Origin: Synechococcus sp. RSCCF101
Lineage (GTDB): Bacteria; Cyanobacteriota; Cyanobacteriia; PCC-6307; Cyanobiaceae
Assembly (NCBI RefSeq): GCF_008807075.1
Contig: NZ_CP035632.1
Coordinates: 186,001 to 250,000 of the forward strand
Length of the DNA: 64,000 nt
Direction of reading: 5' to 3'
Shown here: piece after piece, positions 23,767-34,096 of the stretch
Position numbering within the stretch: position 1 is the first letter of the stretch
How the letters are laid out: each line of letters opens with the position of its first letter
Translations under genes and position numbers: made by a program
Notes under the pieces: generated by a model
Told to the model about the DNA's origin: nothing
Seen by the model: only the letters and a program-made list of their open reading frames with translations
Database searches by the model: none

Positions 23767-23784
23767 CATGATCGGCTGGAAGAG

Positions 23785-23824
23785 AAGAAGAACCCCAAGA
23801 AGAACCCCAAGAAGAACCCCAAGA
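23785..23824 (+). repeat. 12-bp tandem repeat, about 3.3 copies, ending one base before a start codon
   Basis: AAGAAGAACCCC occurs three times without change (23785-23796, 23797-23808, 23809-23820), followed by AAGA of a fourth copy and then C-ATG of the CheB-CheR fusion gene. The frame of the gene is open through the repeat (reading E-E-P-Q units) back to a TGA at 23769, but it has no start codon there, so the repeat appears untranslated. It occupies the place where a ribosome-binding site should be. Confidence 0.85.
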
Positions 23825-23825
23825 C

Positions 23826-26800
23826 ATGCCGGAGGCCCGAGATCCTGGGAATGATTCCCAACGCCGGCAACGTGGTGATGCTGCTGCTCCCGGTCAGGGC
23901 AGCGCCTCGCCACCATCGACGGATGCTCAGCCAGTCGGGGCCGAAGGGCGCCGGACTCCGGAGCAGGGGTGGGACGCGTCTGAGCCCGGCGAGGCCGGCA
24001 GCGGTGATTCCGTCAGCCACCTGGTCTGCATCGGCGCTTCAGCGGGTGGCCTGGAGGCCATCGAGGAGCTTCTGGCGGGCCTGCCAGCGCTCTCCGGCCT
24101 GGCCGTGATCCTGGCGATGCATGTCGCCCCGGACAAGCCGACCAACCTGCCGGACTATCTGAGCCGGAAGACCGCGTTGGAGGTCGTGCTGGCGGCCGAT
24201 GGAATGGCCCTCAGGCCAGGCGCTCTGGTGGTTGCGCAGCCCGGCCGGGATCTCACCCTCAACGGCAGCACGATTGCGTTTGTGCAGCCGCAGGAGGGCG
24301 CTTTCTCCGTTCCAAGCATTGACAGGTTCTTCCACTCGGCGGCCAGCAGCTGGGCAGAGCGCTGCATCGGCATCGTTCTCTCCGGCTCTGGCTCGGATGG
24401 CGCCATGGGCCTGCGGGCGATCCGCAGCGGTGGTGGCCTGACCATTGTTCAGAACCCGGCAACGGCTCGCTTTTCGTCCATGCCCCAATCAGCGTTCGCC
24501 TACGGGGGTGCGGAATGGGCTCTCGATGCCGGGACCATCGGGTCTGCGTTGGAGCGCTATCTCCGGCCTGACGTGCCTGACCTTCCTGAGCAATCAGATC
24601 CTGCTCAGATGAGCCGGGAGGAGCAGCAGCAGGGCGAGCGATACCAGGAGCAGCAGCAGCAGGACGACCTTCTGCTTGATGTGACCAAACTGATCCTGAA
24701 GCGGCGCGGCATTGATTTCTCTCAGTACAAGCGCTCCACATTGCGTCGCCAGATCCGGCGAAGGATGGTTGTGGCTGGCGTGGAATCTCTGAAGAGCTAT
24801 CTCGATCTGCTCAGGGATTCCCCGGATGAGGCGAATGAGCTGACACGAAACATGCTGGTCAGTGTGACGGCCTTTTTCCGTGATCCTGATGTGTTTGCCT
24901 GCCTCGCTCAGGCAATGCGCGATCTGCCAATTGTGGCTGATGACGACCGGCAGATGCGGATCTGGGTGCCGGGTTGTGCGACGGGGGAAGAGCTGTATTC
25001 GGTTGCCATGCTTGCGAGCGAGATCCTTGGCAATCCACCGGATCTCGGCCGCAGGCTCAAGCTGTTCGGTACGGATCTGGATGAGGAGAGTCTCACGATT
25101 GCCCGACGCGCGGTCTACACGCCCGATGCAGTGCAGGCCATACCGAGTGCACTTCGCTCGCGCTATCTCGTCTCTCAGGGCTACATGTACCGCATTCGAG
25201 AGGACATTCGAGACTGTGCCGTGTTTGCAAGGCACGATCTCTCTCAGGACCCTCCCTTTCCGGAGATTGATGTGATTTCCTGTCGCAATACGCTGATCTA
25301 TTTCTCAAACCAGATGCAAGACAAAATCTTCGATACGTTCCGGTTCAGCCTGGTTGATCGTGGTCTGCTGATCCTGGGGCCATCGGAAATCCTTCGAACC
25401 CAGTCTCAGGGACTCGCCATCCTCAATGGTGAGCACCACATCTATTCCCGCTACGGCGGCTCAACGGTCCGTACACTGCGTGCCCCTGCTGTGGCGACCA
25501 AACCCACCAACCAGTCGCCAAGTCGGAGCAGGGACCAGCGCGCGCAATTCTCGACATCGTCCCAGTCCTACGGCAGCAGCTTCTGGTACGCCATCGTTGC
25601 CGCGGCGGTGGAGCCATCCCTGGTGCTCGATGACCGGGATCGCGTGCTGGAGGTGATCGGTGATGTGTCCGCCTTCTGCCAGATCCCTCCGGGCCAGTTG
25701 ACCCATTCCCTGCTCAGGCTCATCAGGCCGGAATGGCGATCTGCTGTACGGGGACTTCTCGTTGCTCTGGAGGGGGGCGCCAGCTGTGTCTCCTCTCTGC
25801 CCCTGTCATCCGGAGCCGGCCGTGACCCGGTGGCATTGGTTCTCACGGCGCTTCCGCTGGATGGCAGGCCGTTCAAGCTGTTGAGCTTCCGGCCGATCTC
25901 CGCACCGATCACATTCCCCCAGAGTCAGAAGACATCGCTCGACGTGCCTCAGCTGCAACTGGCCGAGGAAGTCCACCGCCTTGAAGAGGAGTTGTTGGAG
26001 ACGAAGGAATCGCAGCGGGTCTACATGGTGGAGCTCCAGTCTGCCAATGAGGAGCTCGAGGCCTCATCCGAGGAATTGCAGGCCTCATCGGAAGAACTGC
26101 AGTCGTCCAACGAAGAGCTGGAAGCCTCGAATGAGGAGCTGCAGGCTTCGAATCAGGAGTTTGCCTGCCTGAATGAAGAACTCCGCGAGCGCAGCGCTCA
26201 GCTTGAACTGGCCAACTGCGACCTGCGCAACATTCAGCAAGCGCTCTCTCAGGGGCTGATCATTCTCGATGAGATGCTTCGGATTCAGCGGTTCTCCTCT
26301 CTGGCGGTGCGCGTCTTCGCGCTTGTCGAGTCCGATGTCGGCTCAACCTTGATGTCTGTGCCCACAACGGTTCCCATCCATGACCTGGAGCGTGTGCTGT
26401 TGGGTGTTGTTCAGGATCAACAGGTTGTCACCCTGGAGTGTGAGAACAGCAAGTCGGCGTATCTGTTGCGCTTTGTTCCGTACAGCACCATCCCGGCGAA
26501 CCGGAGCGGTGTGATCGTGACCATCACTGACATCTCAACCATTGTGCGCCTGCGCCGAACAGCGGAATCAACACTGGCGGATCTCAACCGAGTTGCGGAT
26601 ACATTGCAGGAAGGCATCTTCAAACGCGAGCTGGAGGGCGAGGGGCGCTTTGTGTTCGTCAGTCAACGCTTTGCGGACATTACTGGCCTTGATGGCGATC
26701 GCCTGGTTGTGGATCCCGGCCTGTTTGACGGGTGCATTCATCCTGACGACAGGGAGCGGGTCAAGGCCCAGAGGCAAAATCGGCCGTCAGGGCCGGTCTT

Positions 26801-28613
26801 GCTGAACTATCGCTTTCTGGTGACTGGCAGCCGTGAGGTCTGGATGAGAGAAACTGCAACGAGCATTGCTGAGGATGGTGCTTCCTACCTCGTGGGCACC
26901 CTCTCCGATATCACGGCTGAGGCGAAGAAGCAGTTGCACGCGGCTGAACTGTCCTCCGTCTTCGAGATGGTGTTCAACACCCGTGAGTTCGGTGTGATGG
27001 CCCTTGATCAGGATCTGACCATCACATTGGCCAATCCGGAGCTTGGCAACCTCAGCGGCTTTGCATTGGAGCACCTCACGGCGCGGCCCTTGTCCCTGCT
27101 GCTGTCACCTCAGGACTCAGGGCCCCTTCTCGCTGAGCTGCGCCACATGCTTACGCATCCTGCCGAAGGCGCTGGTTCACGCTGCATGCCGCTCACATGT
27201 GCCGATGGCTCCGAGATCTGGGTCGTTCTGGAGCTGCAGTGTCTGTCAACGCCGCTTCCAGCTTCCTCCATCATCATCACCGTCAAGGATGTCACCCTGC
27301 TGCGCTCCACCATCCAGGACCTCCAGCATCAGGCGTTGGAGGATCCACTCACCGGAGCCTGCAACAGCAAGGCCTTTCACCGCCAACTCCACCACGACAT
27401 CCGGCGAGCCGAGCGCAGTCAGACCCCCCTGGCTGTGATCACGCTCGACATCGACTCATTCAAGGCCGTGAACGACCAGCATGGCCACCCTGCCGGCGAT
27501 GCCGTGCTGGCTGAGACCGCTTCTCGCCTCAGCCGTGTCACCAGAGCGGGCTTCTCTGCCGTGGCCAGGATCGGCGGCGATGAGTTCGCTCTGTCTTTGA
27601 CCGGCTTCTCATCGATGGCGGATCTGGATCGCGCCCTGATGCGCCTGATGGCTGAACTCTCCCATCCGTTTCAGCTTGACGATGCCCGGCTCAATCTGAA
27701 TTTCAGCATCGGCGTGGCTCTGTTCCCCGAGCATGCCGAGGCGAAGGACGCGCTGATCGCCGCTGCCGATGAAGCGCTCTACGACGCCAAGGCCACGCCC
27801 GGCACCCAGTACCGGCTCTTCCGAACCGACCTGTCCGATCAGCAGTCCCGGCGGCAGTCGTTGTCCGAGCGTCTCGCTCAGGCTGTGGCTGCCGACCGCT
27901 TCGATCTGAGTTATCAGCCCATCGTTGATGCCGCGACGGGAGTGACGTGGGGGCTGGAAGCCCTGTTGCGCTGGCGACTGGACGACGCCCTTGTCCCCGC
28001 CTGCGACTTCATCGATGTGCTCGAGTCCCACGGTCTGCTCCGACGCCTGCAGCCGCTGCTGCTGCGTCTGCTCACCCGCGATCTGGACATCATCCGCTCC
28101 GCCTTTGATGACACCGTGCAACTCTGCGTGAATCTCCTGCCCAGCCAGCTCACTGCGGAGACGGCCAATGCCGTGCTGGTGAACTGGCCGCGGCGGAATT
28201 CCCTCAGAGGCCTCGCTGCGGAGATCACCCCCGCCGCCTTTCAGTCGCCCACGGCGCAACGTTGCCTTCTCCTGCTGGCGGAGCATGGCGTGCAGCTCTC
28301 CATCGACGATTTCACAACCGTGCACGGCAACCTGATCGCTCTGCGGGATCAGGGGCCGGCCGTGCTGAAGATCGATGGGTCCCGCTTCGACCTCAGCGGC
28401 ACCACCACCGCCGACCTGGCCATGGTGAACGCCCTGGCGGCCTACGCCCATGCCTGCGGCTCCCTCCTGGCTGTCAAGAACATCGATGACGCCAACGGCG
28501 CCGCTCAGCTTCGCCAGTCCGAGGTGGATCTGATCCAGGGCCGTGCCATCTGTGATCCCCTGCCGCTGGGCGAGTGCATCAGATGGTGCCAGGACCGCTC
28601 CAGCGCAGGCTGA
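23826..28613 (+). CDS. CheB-CheR-PAS-GGDEF-EAL multidomain signalling protein
   Basis: This is a 1595-residue soluble fusion. CheB methylesterase (about 62-245) keeps the Ser in GASAGG (~68-73), the His in AMHVAP and the Asp in GSGSDGA. CheR methyltransferase (about 285-535) has VPGCATGEELYSVAML for SAM and CRNTLIYF. A heptad-rich coiled coil of repeated SSEELQ/SNEELEAS units (about 710-805) follows, then about three PAS-like segments (805-1160). GGDEF (1169-1332) has an intact RIGGDEF. EAL (1350-1588) has GLEALLRW but reads EITP for EITE and IDDFTT for DDFG, so hydrolysis is doubtful. CheB-CheR-PAS cores are known in hybrid kinases; the cyclase end replaces the kinase. There is no receiver domain, transmembrane segment or che neighbour. 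Codon use in the first two thirds is less GC-rich than in its neighbours. Confidence 0.92.
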   Translation: MPEARDPGNDSQRRQRGDAAAPGQGSASPPSTDAQPVGAEGRRTPEQGWDASEPGEAGSGDSVSHLVCIGASAGGLEAIEELLAGLPALSGLAVILAMHVAPDKPTNLPDYLSRKTALEVVLAADGMALRPGALVVAQPGRDLTLNGSTIAFVQPQEGAFSVPSIDRFFHSAASSWAERCIGIVLSGSGSDGAMGLRAIRSGGGLTIVQNPATARFSSMPQSAFAYGGAEWALDAGTIGSALERYLRPDVPDLPEQSDPAQMSREEQQQGERYQEQQQQDDLLLDVTKLILKRRGIDFSQYKRSTLRRQIRRRMVVAGVESLKSYLDLLRDSPDEANELTRNMLVSVTAFFRDPDVFACLAQAMRDLPIVADDDRQMRIWVPGCATGEELYSVAMLASEILGNPPDLGRRLKLFGTDLDEESLTIARRAVYTPDAVQAIPSALRSRYLVSQGYMYRIREDIRDCAVFARHDLSQDPPFPEIDVISCRNTLIYFSNQMQDKIFDTFRFSLVDRGLLILGPSEILRTQSQGLAILNGEHHIYSRYGGSTVRTLRAPAVATKPTNQSPSRSRDQRAQFSTSSQSYGSSFWYAIVAAAVEPSLVLDDRDRVLEVIGDVSAFCQIPPGQLTHSLLRLIRPEWRSAVRGLLVALEGGASCVSSLPLSSGAGRDPVALVLTALPLDGRPFKLLSFRPISAPITFPQSQKTSLDVPQLQLAEEVHRLEEELLETKESQRVYMVELQSANEELEASSEELQASSEELQSSNEELEASNEELQASNQEFACLNEELRERSAQLELANCDLRNIQQALSQGLIILDEMLRIQRFSSLAVRVFALVESDVGSTLMSVPTTVPIHDLERVLLGVVQDQQVVTLECENSKSAYLLRFVPYSTIPANRSGVIVTITDISTIVRLRRTAESTLADLNRVADTLQEGIFKRELEGEGRFVFVSQRFADITGLDGDRLVVDPGLFDGCIHPDDRERVKAQRQNRPSGPVLLNYRFLVTGSREVWMRETATSIAEDGASYLVGTLSDITAEAKKQLHAAELSSVFEMVFNTREFGVMALDQDLTITLANPELGNLSGFALEHLTARPLSLLLSPQDSGPLLAELRHMLTHPAEGAGSRCMPLTCADGSEIWVVLELQCLSTPLPASSIIITVKDVTLLRSTIQDLQHQALEDPLTGACNSKAFHRQLHHDIRRAERSQTPLAVITLDIDSFKAVNDQHGHPAGDAVLAETASRLSRVTRAGFSAVARIGGDEFALSLTGFSSMADLDRALMRLMAELSHPFQLDDARLNLNFSIGVALFPEHAEAKDALIAAADEALYDAKATPGTQYRLFRTDLSDQQSRRQSLSERLAQAVAADRFDLSYQPIVDAATGVTWGLEALLRWRLDDALVPACDFIDVLESHGLLRRLQPLLLRLLTRDLDIIRSAFDDTVQLCVNLLPSQLTAETANAVLVNWPRRNSLRGLAAEITPAAFQSPTAQRCLLLLAEHGVQLSIDDFTTVHGNLIALRDQGPAVLKIDGSRFDLSGTTTADLAMVNALAAYAHACGSLLAVKNIDDANGAAQLRQSEVDLIQGRAICDPLPLGECIRWCQDRSSAG

Positions 28614-30837: not shown

Positions 30838-32505
30838 ATGGGCCAGTCCAGCGACGAGGTCATCGCCAGCCTGCGCCACAGCCTCGGCACGCTCGAGGCG
30901 GCGCTGAGCGTAGTGGATGAGGCCCTGGTGATCACCAGCCGGGCCAATGCGATCGAGTGGTGCAACACGGCCTTCGAGGAGCTGGCCGGCCGGCGGCGCA
31001 TGTTCCTGCTCGGTAGCGATCTCTGCACCATCCTCGAAGACATTCACAGCCCGGAGAATGCGGAAGCCTGCGGGCTGTTCCTCGCCGATTTCCGCACCCT
31101 CAACACCGGCGCACGGGTGTTTCAGCTCAATCCCGGTCTGCCCTGGGAAACGGTGTCCCTCACCTGGGCGCCGGTGTGGATCCCGGGCCGGGAGAGCCTG
31201 ATCACGGCCATCCGCAACATCAGCGACCTGGCCCGCAGCGAGCGGCAGCTGCGGCAGGCCAACGACACCCTCGAGGAGCAGGTGCGGCGCCGCACCGCCG
31301 AGCTGCGTTCCGCCCGCGACGAAGCGGTGGCCGCCAACCGGGCCAAGACCATCTTCCTGGCCAACATGAGTCATGAGATCCGCACGCCGATGAATGCCGT
31401 GATCGGCATGAGCGAGCTCCTCATGGACACCTCGCTCGACGAGCGTCAGCAGGAACTGGTCGACACCCTGCACACCAGCGGTGAGCACCTGCTGGCCCTG
31501 ATCTCCGACATCCTCGACATCAGCCGCATCCAGGCCGATCGCATGGAACTGTGCGAGCGGCGCTTCGACCTGCGCTCGCTGCTCGACGACTGCCTCGCCC
31601 TGATCCAGCCGCTGGCGGAGAGCAAGGGCCTGCAGCTCCGCCGCACGGGTCCCGAGCTCTGGCCTCCGCCGCTGCTGGGGGACCGGATGCGTCTGCGCCA
31701 GATCCTGGTGAATCTGCTCAGCAATGCGGTGAAGTACACCGAAACCGGCTGGCTGAAGCTGGAGGTGGAGGCCCCGCCTGCAACAGGCGAGCGTCAGGAT
31801 CTGCGGCTGGTGGTGAGCGACAGCGGCATCGGCATCCGCCGGGAGTTCCTCGCCGTGATCTTCGAGGACTTCTCCCGCGATGTGAAGGCCGAGGTCAAGG
31901 GCGGCAGCACGGGCCTGGGCCTGGCCATCAGCCGCCGGCTCACCGAGCTGATGGGCGGCCGCATCGAGGCGGCGTCCACCCCCGGTCAGGGCAGCGTCTT
32001 CACGGTCTCCCTGGCCCTGCCGCTCGCCGGGCCGGCGGCTGACGCCCCGGCTGCGGCGGAACCCGGCGAGGGCGGGAACGCTCCTCTGGAGGACGACTTC
32101 TCCGACCTGCGGCTGCTGGTGGCGGAGGACAACCCGGTCAACCAGCGGGTGATCCAGCTCATGCTCCGGAAACTCGGGATCGAGGCGGCCCTCGTGAGCG
32201 ATGGCGCCGAAGTGCTCACCTGGCTGGAGAGCCACAGAGCCGATGTGGTGCTGATGGACATCGAGATGCCGGAGATGGATGGCCTGGAGGCCACGCGCCG
32301 GTTGCGGCGGCGGCCGGGGCCCCAGCCCTACGTGATCGCCCTGACGGCCTATTCCTTCAACTCCCAGCGGCAGGGCTGCCTCGCCGCCGGCATGAACGAC
32401 TTCCTCTCCAAGCCGATCAAGGCCGCTCAGCTGCGCGACGCCTTCCGCCGCTACCGCGACGCCGAGGCGGTCCCGGCCCGTCCCTCCGCACCCCCGAACG
32501 ATTGA
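30838..32505 (+). CDS. Hybrid sensor histidine kinase (PAS-HisKA-HATPase-REC)
   Basis: This is a 555-residue cytoplasmic kinase. An N-terminal PAS domain (about 15-130) and a short coiled coil lead to HisKA with the phospho-accepting H179 in [15 protein letters not shown], a HATPase with N box [10 protein letters not shown]1 DSGIGI and G2 [10 protein letters not shown], and a C-terminal receiver with D474 in [11 protein letters not shown] and the lysine in SKPIKA. No membrane segments are seen. The stop overlaps the ATG of the Hpt gene (TGATG). Kinase, internal receiver and coupled Hpt form a complete phosphorelay. Confidence 0.93.
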
Positions 32506-32918
32506 TGGCCTTTGACCCCTCAGGCCCGGATGCCGCTCCGGGTTCAGCGTCAACCGTGCTCGATCCAGCCATCTGGCAGGAGCTCAGGAGTCTCTTCGAA
32601 GGGGATGAGGCCGGCCTGGCGGATCTGGTGCGCACCTTCGCCGACGACTCGCAGCGAACCCTGGATCGGCTGGCGGATCCAGGTCTGCCCGCCGAACGCT
32701 GGCGGGCCGGTCTGCATCGGCTGCGCTCAGCCAGCGCCGGCATCGGTGCGGCGGCCCTGTCGGCGCTCTGCGCCGACCTGGAGGCCGGCGAGCCCCCCGG
32801 CCCCGACTGTCCTGGCCCGCTGCTGGAGCGCCTCCGTCGCGAGCGTGAGGCGGCCCTGCGCGCCCTGGGCGGAGCGACAGGGGATCCGTCCGAGACGCAG
32901 GAGACCGACCCCGGCTGA
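32505..32918 (+). CDS. Hpt phosphotransfer protein
   Basis: This is a 137-residue helical protein with the Hpt-type segment LHRLRSASAGIGAAAL, in which H71 is the expected phospho-histidine. The usual H-x-L-K-G lysine is arginine here (HRLRS). The ends are disordered. Its position, translationally coupled to the hybrid kinase upstream and to the REC-PP2C gene downstream (overlap at 32918), indicates that it passes phosphate from the kinase receiver to the next receiver. The divergent motif lowers confidence in the domain call, not in the gene. Confidence 0.78.
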   Translation: MAFDPSGPDAAPGSASTVLDPAIWQELRSLFEGDEAGLADLVRTFADDSQRTLDRLADPGLPAERWRAGLHRLRSASAGIGAAALSALCADLEAGEPPGPDCPGPLLERLRREREAALRALGGATGDPSETQETDPG

Positions 32919-34096
32919 TGGAGCCCGCGGCCTGCCGGATCGATGCCCCCCCGGTGCTCGTGGTTGATGACGACCCGGTGCACCGGCGCATCACCGCGGC
33001 CCGCCTCAGCCGCAACGGTCAGCGGGTGCTCGATGCCGGATCCGGTCCTGAGGCGCTCGAACTGGCCCGCACCGGCGGCCCGCCTGCCGTGGTGCTCTGC
33101 GACTGGGAGATGGAGGGGATGGATGGCCTCCAGGTCTGCTCGGCCTTCAAGGCCGATCCCGCCCTGAGCGGCTGCCACTTCATCCTGCTCACCGCCCGCT
33201 CGGGCGAGCCCGATCGCATCCGCGGGCTCGACTGCGGTGCGGACGATTTCCTCAGCAAGCCGATCAGCCAGGAGGAGCTGATGGCGCGCGTGCGCTGCGG
33301 CCTGCGGCTGCATGACGCCGCCGAGCGGCTGCGGCTGCTCTCGGCGGATCTGCAGGCCCAGCACAGCCTGATGGAGACCGAGATCCAGGCGGCGGCCCGC
33401 TATGTGCAGCAGCTGCTCCCGGTCCGGCTGGAGGGGGATGTGCAGGTGGTGGGCCGCTTCCAGCCCTGCTTCCACCTCGGCGGTGATGCCTACGACTCCT
33501 TCTGGGTCGACCGCCACCATCTCGTCCTCTACATCCTTGACGTCTCCGGCCATGGGCTGGCGGCGGCCCTGCCCTCGGTGTCGGTGGTGAATCTGCTGCG
33601 CTCCGGCAGCCTGCGCGTGCCCCTCACCCGTCCGGCGGCGGTGCTCTGCGAGCTGAACCGCCGCTTTGAGATGGAGGAGCAGGGCGGCCGCTACTTCACC
33701 ATCTGGTACGGGGTCTTCGATCGCCGCAGCCGGCTGCTGCGCTACTCCAGCGCGGGTCATCCTCCCGGCCTGCTGCTGCGGGGCGCTCCCCATGTGCAGC
33801 CCCTCAGCACCCGCAACCTGCCCGTGGGCCTGCTGGAGAACGCCGAGTACGACGAGGGCCGCTGCCGGATCGAACGGGACTCGCGCCTGCTGCTCTACAG
33901 CGACGGCCTCTACGAGTGCGACGCTGAGGACCGGACACCTCTGGGGCTGATCGGACTGGAGGACCTGGCGGCGAGGCTGCCGGAGACCGATCCCGGCCTC
34001 GCCCTCGACCACCTGTTCGCTGAGGTGAGCCGGCGCCTTGGGGCCGCTCCGTTCAGCGACGACGCCTCGGCCCTGCTGGCCCGGTTCGCGGGCTGA
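32918..34096 (+). CDS. Response regulator with PP2C-type (RsbU/SpoIIE-like) phosphatase domain
   Basis: This is a 392-residue protein. The receiver domain (about 12-130) has the DDD acidic pocket, phospho-acceptor D62 in LCDWEMEGMDG and the lysine in LSKPIS. A helical linker follows. The PP2C/SpoIIE domain (about 175-390) has GGDAYDSF, ILDVSGHGLAAAL, SSAGHPPGLLL and LLLYSDGLYE, with metal-binding aspartates present, and FSDDASALL at the end. Such proteins dephosphorylate STAS-domain antagonists when the receiver is phosphorylated. A STAS protein is encoded convergently 19 bp away, which is its likely substrate. Confidence 0.93.
   Translation: MEPAACRIDAPPVLVVDDDPVHRRITAARLSRNGQRVLDAGSGPEALELARTGGPPAVVLCDWEMEGMDGLQVCSAFKADPALSGCHFILLTARSGEPDRIRGLDCGADDFLSKPISQEELMARVRCGLRLHDAAERLRLLSADLQAQHSLMETEIQAAARYVQQLLPVRLEGDVQVVGRFQPCFHLGGDAYDSFWVDRHHLVLYILDVSGHGLAAALPSVSVVNLLRSGSLRVPLTRPAAVLCELNRRFEMEEQGGRYFTIWYGVFDRRSRLLRYSSAGHPPGLLLRGAPHVQPLSTRNLPVGLLENAEYDEGRCRIERDSRLLLYSDGLYECDAEDRTPLGLIGLEDLAARLPETDPGLALDHLFAEVSRRLGAAPFSDDASALLARFAG

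Follow-up and report, generated by a model that had tools for sequence, protein, structure and literature searches.

The gene at positions 23826..28613 (+ strand) of the 64,000-nucleotide stretch of Synechococcus sp. RSCCF101 DNA analysed here (the window) encodes a 1,595-residue protein in which the chemotaxis enzymes CheB and CheR are fused to PAS, GGDEF and EAL domains and which carries, within the same chain, a candidate substrate for methylation. It is this candidate substrate that is new; the CheB-CheR-PAS architecture itself is not unique. The best explanation of the observations, to which we give about an even chance of being correct, is that the protein is a self-contained cytoplasmic sensor whose CheR and CheB domains methylate and demethylate an array in its own signalling helix. 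Under this explanation, the PAS domains would sense an intracellular cue and pass the signal down a long helix to GGDEF, where c-di-GMP would be made; CheR would methylate, and CheB demethylate, the glutamates of five EExx[AS]S heptads (residues 742-776), in cis or across a dimer; and the level of methylation would retune how PAS input is coupled to GGDEF output (its gain or offset), as receptor methylation does in chemoreceptors. The EAL domain would have lost c-di-GMP hydrolysis, and may bind c-di-GMP and feed back. From the sequence, we infer that the array is the substrate of CheR and CheB, that methylating it alters the activity of the GGDEF domain, and that the EAL domain has a role in binding or feedback.

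The open reading frame begins with ATG, has 1,595 codons for amino acids and contains no internal stops, and every Pfam domain call on its product lies above the curated cut-off. A CheB methylesterase domain without a receiver (REC) domain (residues 67-241, 24024..24548; CheB_methylest, 9.5 × 10−48) is followed by the CheR methyltransferase (CheR_N, residues 287-333, and CheR, residues 347-534, together 24684..25427; CheR, 8.8 × 10−43). Ahead of the coil lies a PAS-like domain (residues ~581-690, 25566..25895) that has no Pfam match and is visible only in the AF2 model, from its secondary structure at high pLDDT; Foldseek matches of the whole model include PAS-containing PDB chains. The coil is a single 97-residue helix (residues 710-806, 25953..26243), presumably a parallel coiled coil, and leads into a PAS_10 domain (residues 801-903, 26226..26534), two more PAS domains (PAS_3, residues 943-1025, and PAS, residues 1055-1140; 26652..27245), a GGDEF domain (residues 1171-1325, 27336..27800; 2 × 10−37) and an EAL domain (residues 1348-1578, 27867..28559; 4.5 × 10−36), all on the + strand. 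The CheB-CheR-PAS-GGDEF-EAL fusion that a preliminary description had read from the letters alone is thus real. The same description had found neither a receiver nor a kinase domain in the protein and no che gene near by, with which the Pfam calls and the neighbouring genes in the window agree: the neighbours encode a metallophosphoesterase, an AI-2E-family transporter (on the other strand), a zinc dehydrogenase, a hybrid histidine kinase and a receiver-SpoIIE phosphatase, and no che gene is among them. The last two, a HisKA-HATPase-REC hybrid kinase gene and a REC-SpoIIE phosphatase gene, lie on the same strand ~2-4 kb downstream (30838-34096). Immediately 5' of the ATG, ~3 tandem copies of a 12-base unit (AAGAAGAACCCC) occupy positions 23783-23822; they fall within the open frame, which has no upstream start codon there, and possibly represent a leader or the true N-terminus. 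A promoter scan found no sigma-70-like site.

Alignment with solved CheB structures places the catalytic triad at S72, H99 and D191, and alignment with solved CheR structures recovers R352, the GCATGEE motif, D417, N488 and Y492, SAM-site residues among them; the AF2 model also matches the CheR structures 1bc5 and 5ftw. The earlier statement that both enzymes keep their catalytic residues therefore stands, and no inactivated site was seen in either. Among 132 relatives these residues are almost invariant; the CheR Tyr is changed in two loci (L033, L036), a third (L018) carries N488Y, and in L037 CheR is wholly degenerate. Maintained catalysis, which this conservation argues for, is at odds with the idea that CheB-CheR has become chiefly a scaffold or SAM-binding input that no longer turns over methyl groups, c-di-GMP being controlled via the PAS domains only. 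Such a scaffold is suggested by the missing receiver domain, which leaves CheB with no known switch, by the long branch of the protein in the CheB-CheR tree and by the existence of a clearly degenerate relative (L037). With the key CheB and CheR residues kept in the 1,595-residue protein and in nearly all of the 132 relatives, we regard it as quite unlikely.

The 2.98-Mb genome (98% complete) contains one CheB and one CheR, both in the 23826..28613 gene. A chemoreceptor (MCP signalling domain, PF00015) was not detectable anywhere in the genome, and hence not in the 1,595-residue protein; a CheW domain was likewise absent genome-wide, and with no CheW-domain protein there is no CheA, so that the genome lacks the CheA/CheW and chemoreceptor components that a canonical chemosensory pathway requires. 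That CheB and CheR are kept without their usual substrate (0 chemoreceptors and 0 CheW domains in the genome) supports methylation in cis, as do the rarity of MCP genes near related loci and the intact GGDEF residues described below. Among 27 other Cyanobiaceae with CheB-CheR-PAS proteins, 24 have no chemoreceptor above the cut-off and 3 have an MCP, and a scan for the chemoreceptor-tip motif, with an annotated Shewanella MCP as positive control, gave a match in 1 of 80 CheB-CheR loci, most of them with ~6 kb of flank. A chemoreceptor as the methylation substrate was rejected, since MCPs are undetectable in this genome and their genes are rare near related loci; a chemoreceptor gene does lie near the Shewanella copy of the architecture, and a substrate in trans is thus possible elsewhere. 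Methylation in cis, if true, would explain how intact CheB and CheR come to be present in genomes without a detectable chemoreceptor. The preliminary description had further held that picocyanobacteria are generally poor in both chemotaxis and c-di-GMP systems; for c-di-GMP this fails here, as 28 GGDEF and 4 PilZ matches mark the genome as rich in such signalling.

In the AF2 model, which was built with 44 sequences, residues 710-806 (model residues 435-531) form one continuous helix between two PAS-like domains, with a pLDDT of mostly 85-95 in this block, and a continuous helix so placed, as modelled, lends support to methylation in cis. Within it, the candidate methyl-acceptor array (residues 742-776, 26049..26153) reads EELEASS EELQASS EELQSSN EELEASN EELQASN, each heptad having the form Glx-Glx-x-x-small-small that is the core of the chemoreceptor methylation motif. 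The chemoreceptor consensus, as given in the passage of PMC6829392 that cites Alexander and Zhulin, is [ASTG][ASTG]xx[EQ][EQ]xx[ASTG][ASTG], the second Glu occupying heptad position c, which is where chemoreceptors are methylated (PMC6829392). If Leu is placed at d and Asn at a, the array too has its second Glu at c, which makes residues 743, 750, 757, 764 and 771 the candidate methylated glutamates. There are five matches to the C-terminal half of the consensus, and to 9 of its 10 positions; the strict 10-position consensus is missed, because the first position is Gln or Glu and not a small residue, and this miss speaks against methylation in cis. A run of four such heptads was seen in 0 of 20,000 shuffles of the protein. 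A recent DNA tandem duplication was rejected as the origin of the array, since the repeats differ at synonymous sites.

These observations have to be set against the alternative that CheB and CheR have their substrates in trans, among other PAS/GGDEF proteins or response regulators, and that the Glu-rich helix is merely a structural coiled coil, which we consider unlikely. A purely structural coil should favour core over surface residues. In 107 unique sequences, with the heptad register set by hydrophobic residues only so that the Glu count is unbiased, the two array Glu positions are occupied by E in 72% and 82% of heptads and the Leu core by Leu in 80%; the surface Glu pairs are thus nearly as conserved as the core and more conserved than any other surface position, the other positions being variable. 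The Glu columns of the coil are invariant or nearly so in 44 sequences drawn from many phyla. Searches of the coil against the PDB returned designed or generic coils only (E 0.018 or worse) and were uninformative. A coil of merely structural use should also occur without CheR. Action in trans finds some support in a report (PMC8546571) that CheR methylates the Salmonella response regulator PhoP at E/E and E/D pairs, and in the ~27 other GGDEF matches of the genome, which are possible targets. The only two array-pattern matches in the host genome, however, both lie within the 23826..28613 gene. The five-heptad array, its conserved Glu pairs and the candidate Glu at heptad c support methylation in cis.

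We searched 291 cyanobacterial genomes and 40 genomes of other groups for a DNA pattern encoding EEL[QE]xxNEEL, without requiring CheR. The pattern matched 40 of the 291 cyanobacterial genomes (reversed control, 0), and all 30 cyanobacterial array loci that were read encode CheR proteins. Over both sets of genomes, 89 of 90 array open reading frames have CheR in the same frame (55 of 56 once the 34 loci by which genomes had been selected are left out), and the one that does not encodes a PAS histidine kinase with a looser, irregular array; this is the reverse of what a merely structural coil would predict, although shared ancestry of one module could account for part of the co-occurrence, which is support and not proof. 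Besides the CheB-CheR fusions, the cyanobacteria have a second, CheB-less family of ~620-690 residues with the order CheR-PAS-array-PAS; a CheB-like gene lies just upstream in 6 of the 9 of these loci that were read more widely (Pfam-confirmed in two). This second family, of the form CheR-PAS-(EELQSTN EELETTN)n-PAS, occurs in many larger cyanobacteria (L143-L145, L147-L170, L172, L173-L181).

Split versions were also found. On a Lokiarchaeota contig (L116:2931-6653), a CheB-CheR gene is followed, after 4 bases, by a PAS-array-PAS_10-kinase gene; in a cyanobacterium (L184:1249-5498), CheB-CheR and coil-kinase are in overlapping frames, by a split gene or a frameshift; and in L080 a PAS-array-kinase protein without CheR is encoded directly upstream of a complete CheB-CheR gene, which makes action on a neighbouring array, and hence in trans, plausible in some cases. 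That the array travels with CheR, and that its split versions adjoin CheB or CheB-CheR genes, points towards methylation in cis. A case against it is L186:2421-5285, where CheB-CheR is joined to HATPase and the coil array, PAS_10 and HisKA are missing, in what looks like a deletion. The number of EE pairs is 4 in the CheR-defective L033, L036 and L037 and mostly 5-8 in the others, with counter-cases in L013 and L039 (4 pairs, intact CheR) and L018 (6 pairs, CheR N488Y); the association of a CheR defect with few EE pairs (Fisher p = 1 × 10−4) ignores kinship, L033 and L036 being sisters, and is only a hint that CheR loss and array erosion go together. L037:2408-4978 is a decayed member altogether, without CheB, with the CheR catalytic motifs lost and with an eroded array, and offers a natural control for the array as substrate.

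The GGDEF signature and the metal/GTP residues are intact by alignment, and the RxxD inhibition site is absent. When the EAL domain is aligned with EAL proteins of solved structure and with GGDEF-EAL relatives, a lysine, K1551 (codon 28476-28478), falls at the position of the catalytic Glu (Glu352 of RocR, Glu703 of TBD1265), and loop 6 reads DDFTTVHGN as opposed to DDFGTGYSS. All relatives aligned at this position keep the Glu; among the aligned relatives, the Lys and the degenerate loop 6 are unique to the 1,595-residue protein. In TBD1265, changing the catalytic Glu to Ala (E703A) abolished activity (PMC12943098). The EAL domain of the 1,595-residue protein is thus probably catalytically dead, and may serve as a c-di-GMP-binding or feedback domain; with an EAL domain that lacks the catalytic Glu and a GGDEF domain whose residues are intact, the predicted enzymatic output is c-di-GMP synthesis. 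Of the c-di-GMP output module proposed in the preliminary description, the part that stands is an intact GGDEF site covalently joined to CheB and CheR, and the part that falls is the EAL site (K1551); the description had overlooked both this site and the candidate methyl-acceptor array. The altered EAL base and loop 6, unique among the aligned relatives, together with the long branch in the CheB-CheR tree, could also be taken as signs of a chance fusion or a decaying gene without coherent function. We find this very improbable: the 1,595-codon frame, the CheB, CheR and GGDEF residues and the array are all intact, the same domain order turns up in many lineages, the GGDEF label having at least 6 forced changes, and it is well known that one c-di-GMP domain of a composite protein can be degenerate (FimX, PMC3527489).

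The CheB-CheR-PAS core was found in ~30 of 201 genomes of the same family (Cyanobiaceae). The full architecture occurs in G023, G149 and G188, with 38-39% full-length identity, and G149 and G147 have it minus two of the PAS domains; in G068 the same architecture is cut by the contig end ahead of the EAL domain. CheB-CheR-PAS-GGDEF-EAL proteins are also present in Thiorhodococcus, Nitrosomonas, Gallionella, Sideroxydans, Azonexus, Sphaerotilus, Halothiobacillus, Thiobacillus, Rhodocyclaceae, Methylococcaceae and Chthonomonas, and on a Shewanella plasmid, where the protein is annotated 'EAL domain-containing protein' and a chemoreceptor gene is near by. Many Beta- and Gammaproteobacteria share the architecture, usually under the labels 'chemotaxis protein CheB' or 'EAL domain protein'. 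The combination is accordingly not the rarity that the preliminary description had taken it for, and its remark that CheB-CheR-PAS modules usually end in a histidine kinase was too strong: among 129 sampled relatives with CheB and CheR, a kinase match was found in 46, GGDEF in 23 and no detected output in 60, where 'none' is an upper bound, since single sequences served as domain queries. The sample itself leans towards GGDEF-EAL, which the query carried. In the maximum-likelihood (ML) tree of the CheB-CheR part, the 1,595-residue protein groups within the Cyanobiaceae clade (support 99), its own branch being long (1.25), and the GGDEF label requires 12 changes, at least 6 of the changes being forced by well-supported branches. 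A single origin of the GGDEF-EAL fusion is not favoured by these counts, with long branches leaving single placements unsure. The repeated changes of output label on the tree show CheB-CheR-PAS to be an input core whose outputs are interchangeable and have been swapped repeatedly. More broadly, and with confidence a little short of even, we propose that CheB-CheR-PAS proteins are widespread self-methylating sensors, with a chemoreceptor-like adaptation module but no chemoreceptors. Their acceptor would be the coiled-coil signalling helix, whether part of the same polypeptide or encoded by the adjacent gene, and their interchangeable outputs would be c-di-GMP enzymes, kinases and, possibly, regulators of the AraC type acting in trans. 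Should the array be methylated, adaptation by glutamyl methylation, a known feature of chemoreceptor arrays, would also operate in stand-alone cytoplasmic sensors of Bacteria and some Archaea, where it would set the gain both for c-di-GMP synthesis and for histidine kinases, and adaptation could be studied directly in a one-protein system, with five named Glu in one polypeptide.

To our knowledge, no function has been assigned to any CheB-CheR-PAS fusion, the family being defined by sequence only. The 1,595-residue protein shows the features of this family (CheB_methylest and CheR in one chain, with intact sites, then a Glu-rich coil and PAS_10) and has the CheB-CheR-PAS-coil-PAS_10 core and the array in common with fusions that have a kinase or no output, from which it differs in ending in GGDEF-EAL, with an EAL site that is probably dead. 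Such fusions are annotated 'chemotaxis protein CheB' or 'CheR family methyltransferase'. We found no functional study of CheB-CheR-PAS proteins in the open-access literature (earlier subscription work may exist), and the preliminary suggestion of an uncharacterised system is to that extent fair, for an architecture that is widespread and annotated by domain only. CheBRA of Rhodobacter sphaeroides is named as a putative methyltransferase-methylesterase fusion (PMC6829392); the passages found in an analysis of CheR fusions to TPR domains do not deal with CheB-CheR-PAS fusions (PMC3447774); and a review of sensory inputs to c-di-GMP signalling treats CheR and CheB in chemosensory pathways only (PMC8846402).

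Methyl-accepting chemotaxis proteins resemble the 1,595-residue protein in the CheR/CheB enzymes, in the methylation-motif core within a heptad helix and in the candidate Glu at c. They differ in that the protein has no MCP signalling domain and its genome no CheW/CheA, in that the enzymes and the presumed substrate form one chain here whereas CheR and CheB are separate there, and in that the array, unlike the MCP bundle pattern, has Leu at d and Asn at a and misses the strict consensus by one position. Composite GGDEF-EAL proteins (the MorA, MucR, RbdA/PA0861 and DosP structures) are alike in their PAS-GGDEF-EAL C-terminal half (PDB matches with E down to 9 × 10−45); compared with them, the 1,595-residue protein has the GGDEF site, lacks the EAL phosphodiesterase site and has, ahead of this half, an input module made up of CheB, CheR and the coil. 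MapZ-CheR1 of Pseudomonas aeruginosa (PMC6370697, PDB 5xly) likewise links c-di-GMP physically to a CheR methyltransferase; in that system a PilZ adaptor that acts on MCP methylation puts CheR under the control of c-di-GMP, whereas in the 1,595-residue protein CheR and the cyclase share one chain and the direction would be from methylation to c-di-GMP.

In Cyanobiaceae, nearly all loci with an output-less CheB-CheR-PAS gene and enough flank (~20) have a divergent AraC-family gene beside it (L008-L017, L019-L026, L036, L037, L039-L041, L043 and L047; HTH_18/HTH_AraC by Pfam in L008), and this partner is absent at 7 of 7 GGDEF-bearing loci (L003-L007, L034 and L035). The association, in which related loci are counted separately, suggests that the output-less forms may have a regulator in trans in place of an output in cis. 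One of the paired loci, L041, comes from a public metagenome-assembled genome titled Bifidobacterium breve; its CheB-CheR-PAS gene falls within the Cyanobiaceae clade, and the bin is mislabelled or contaminated.
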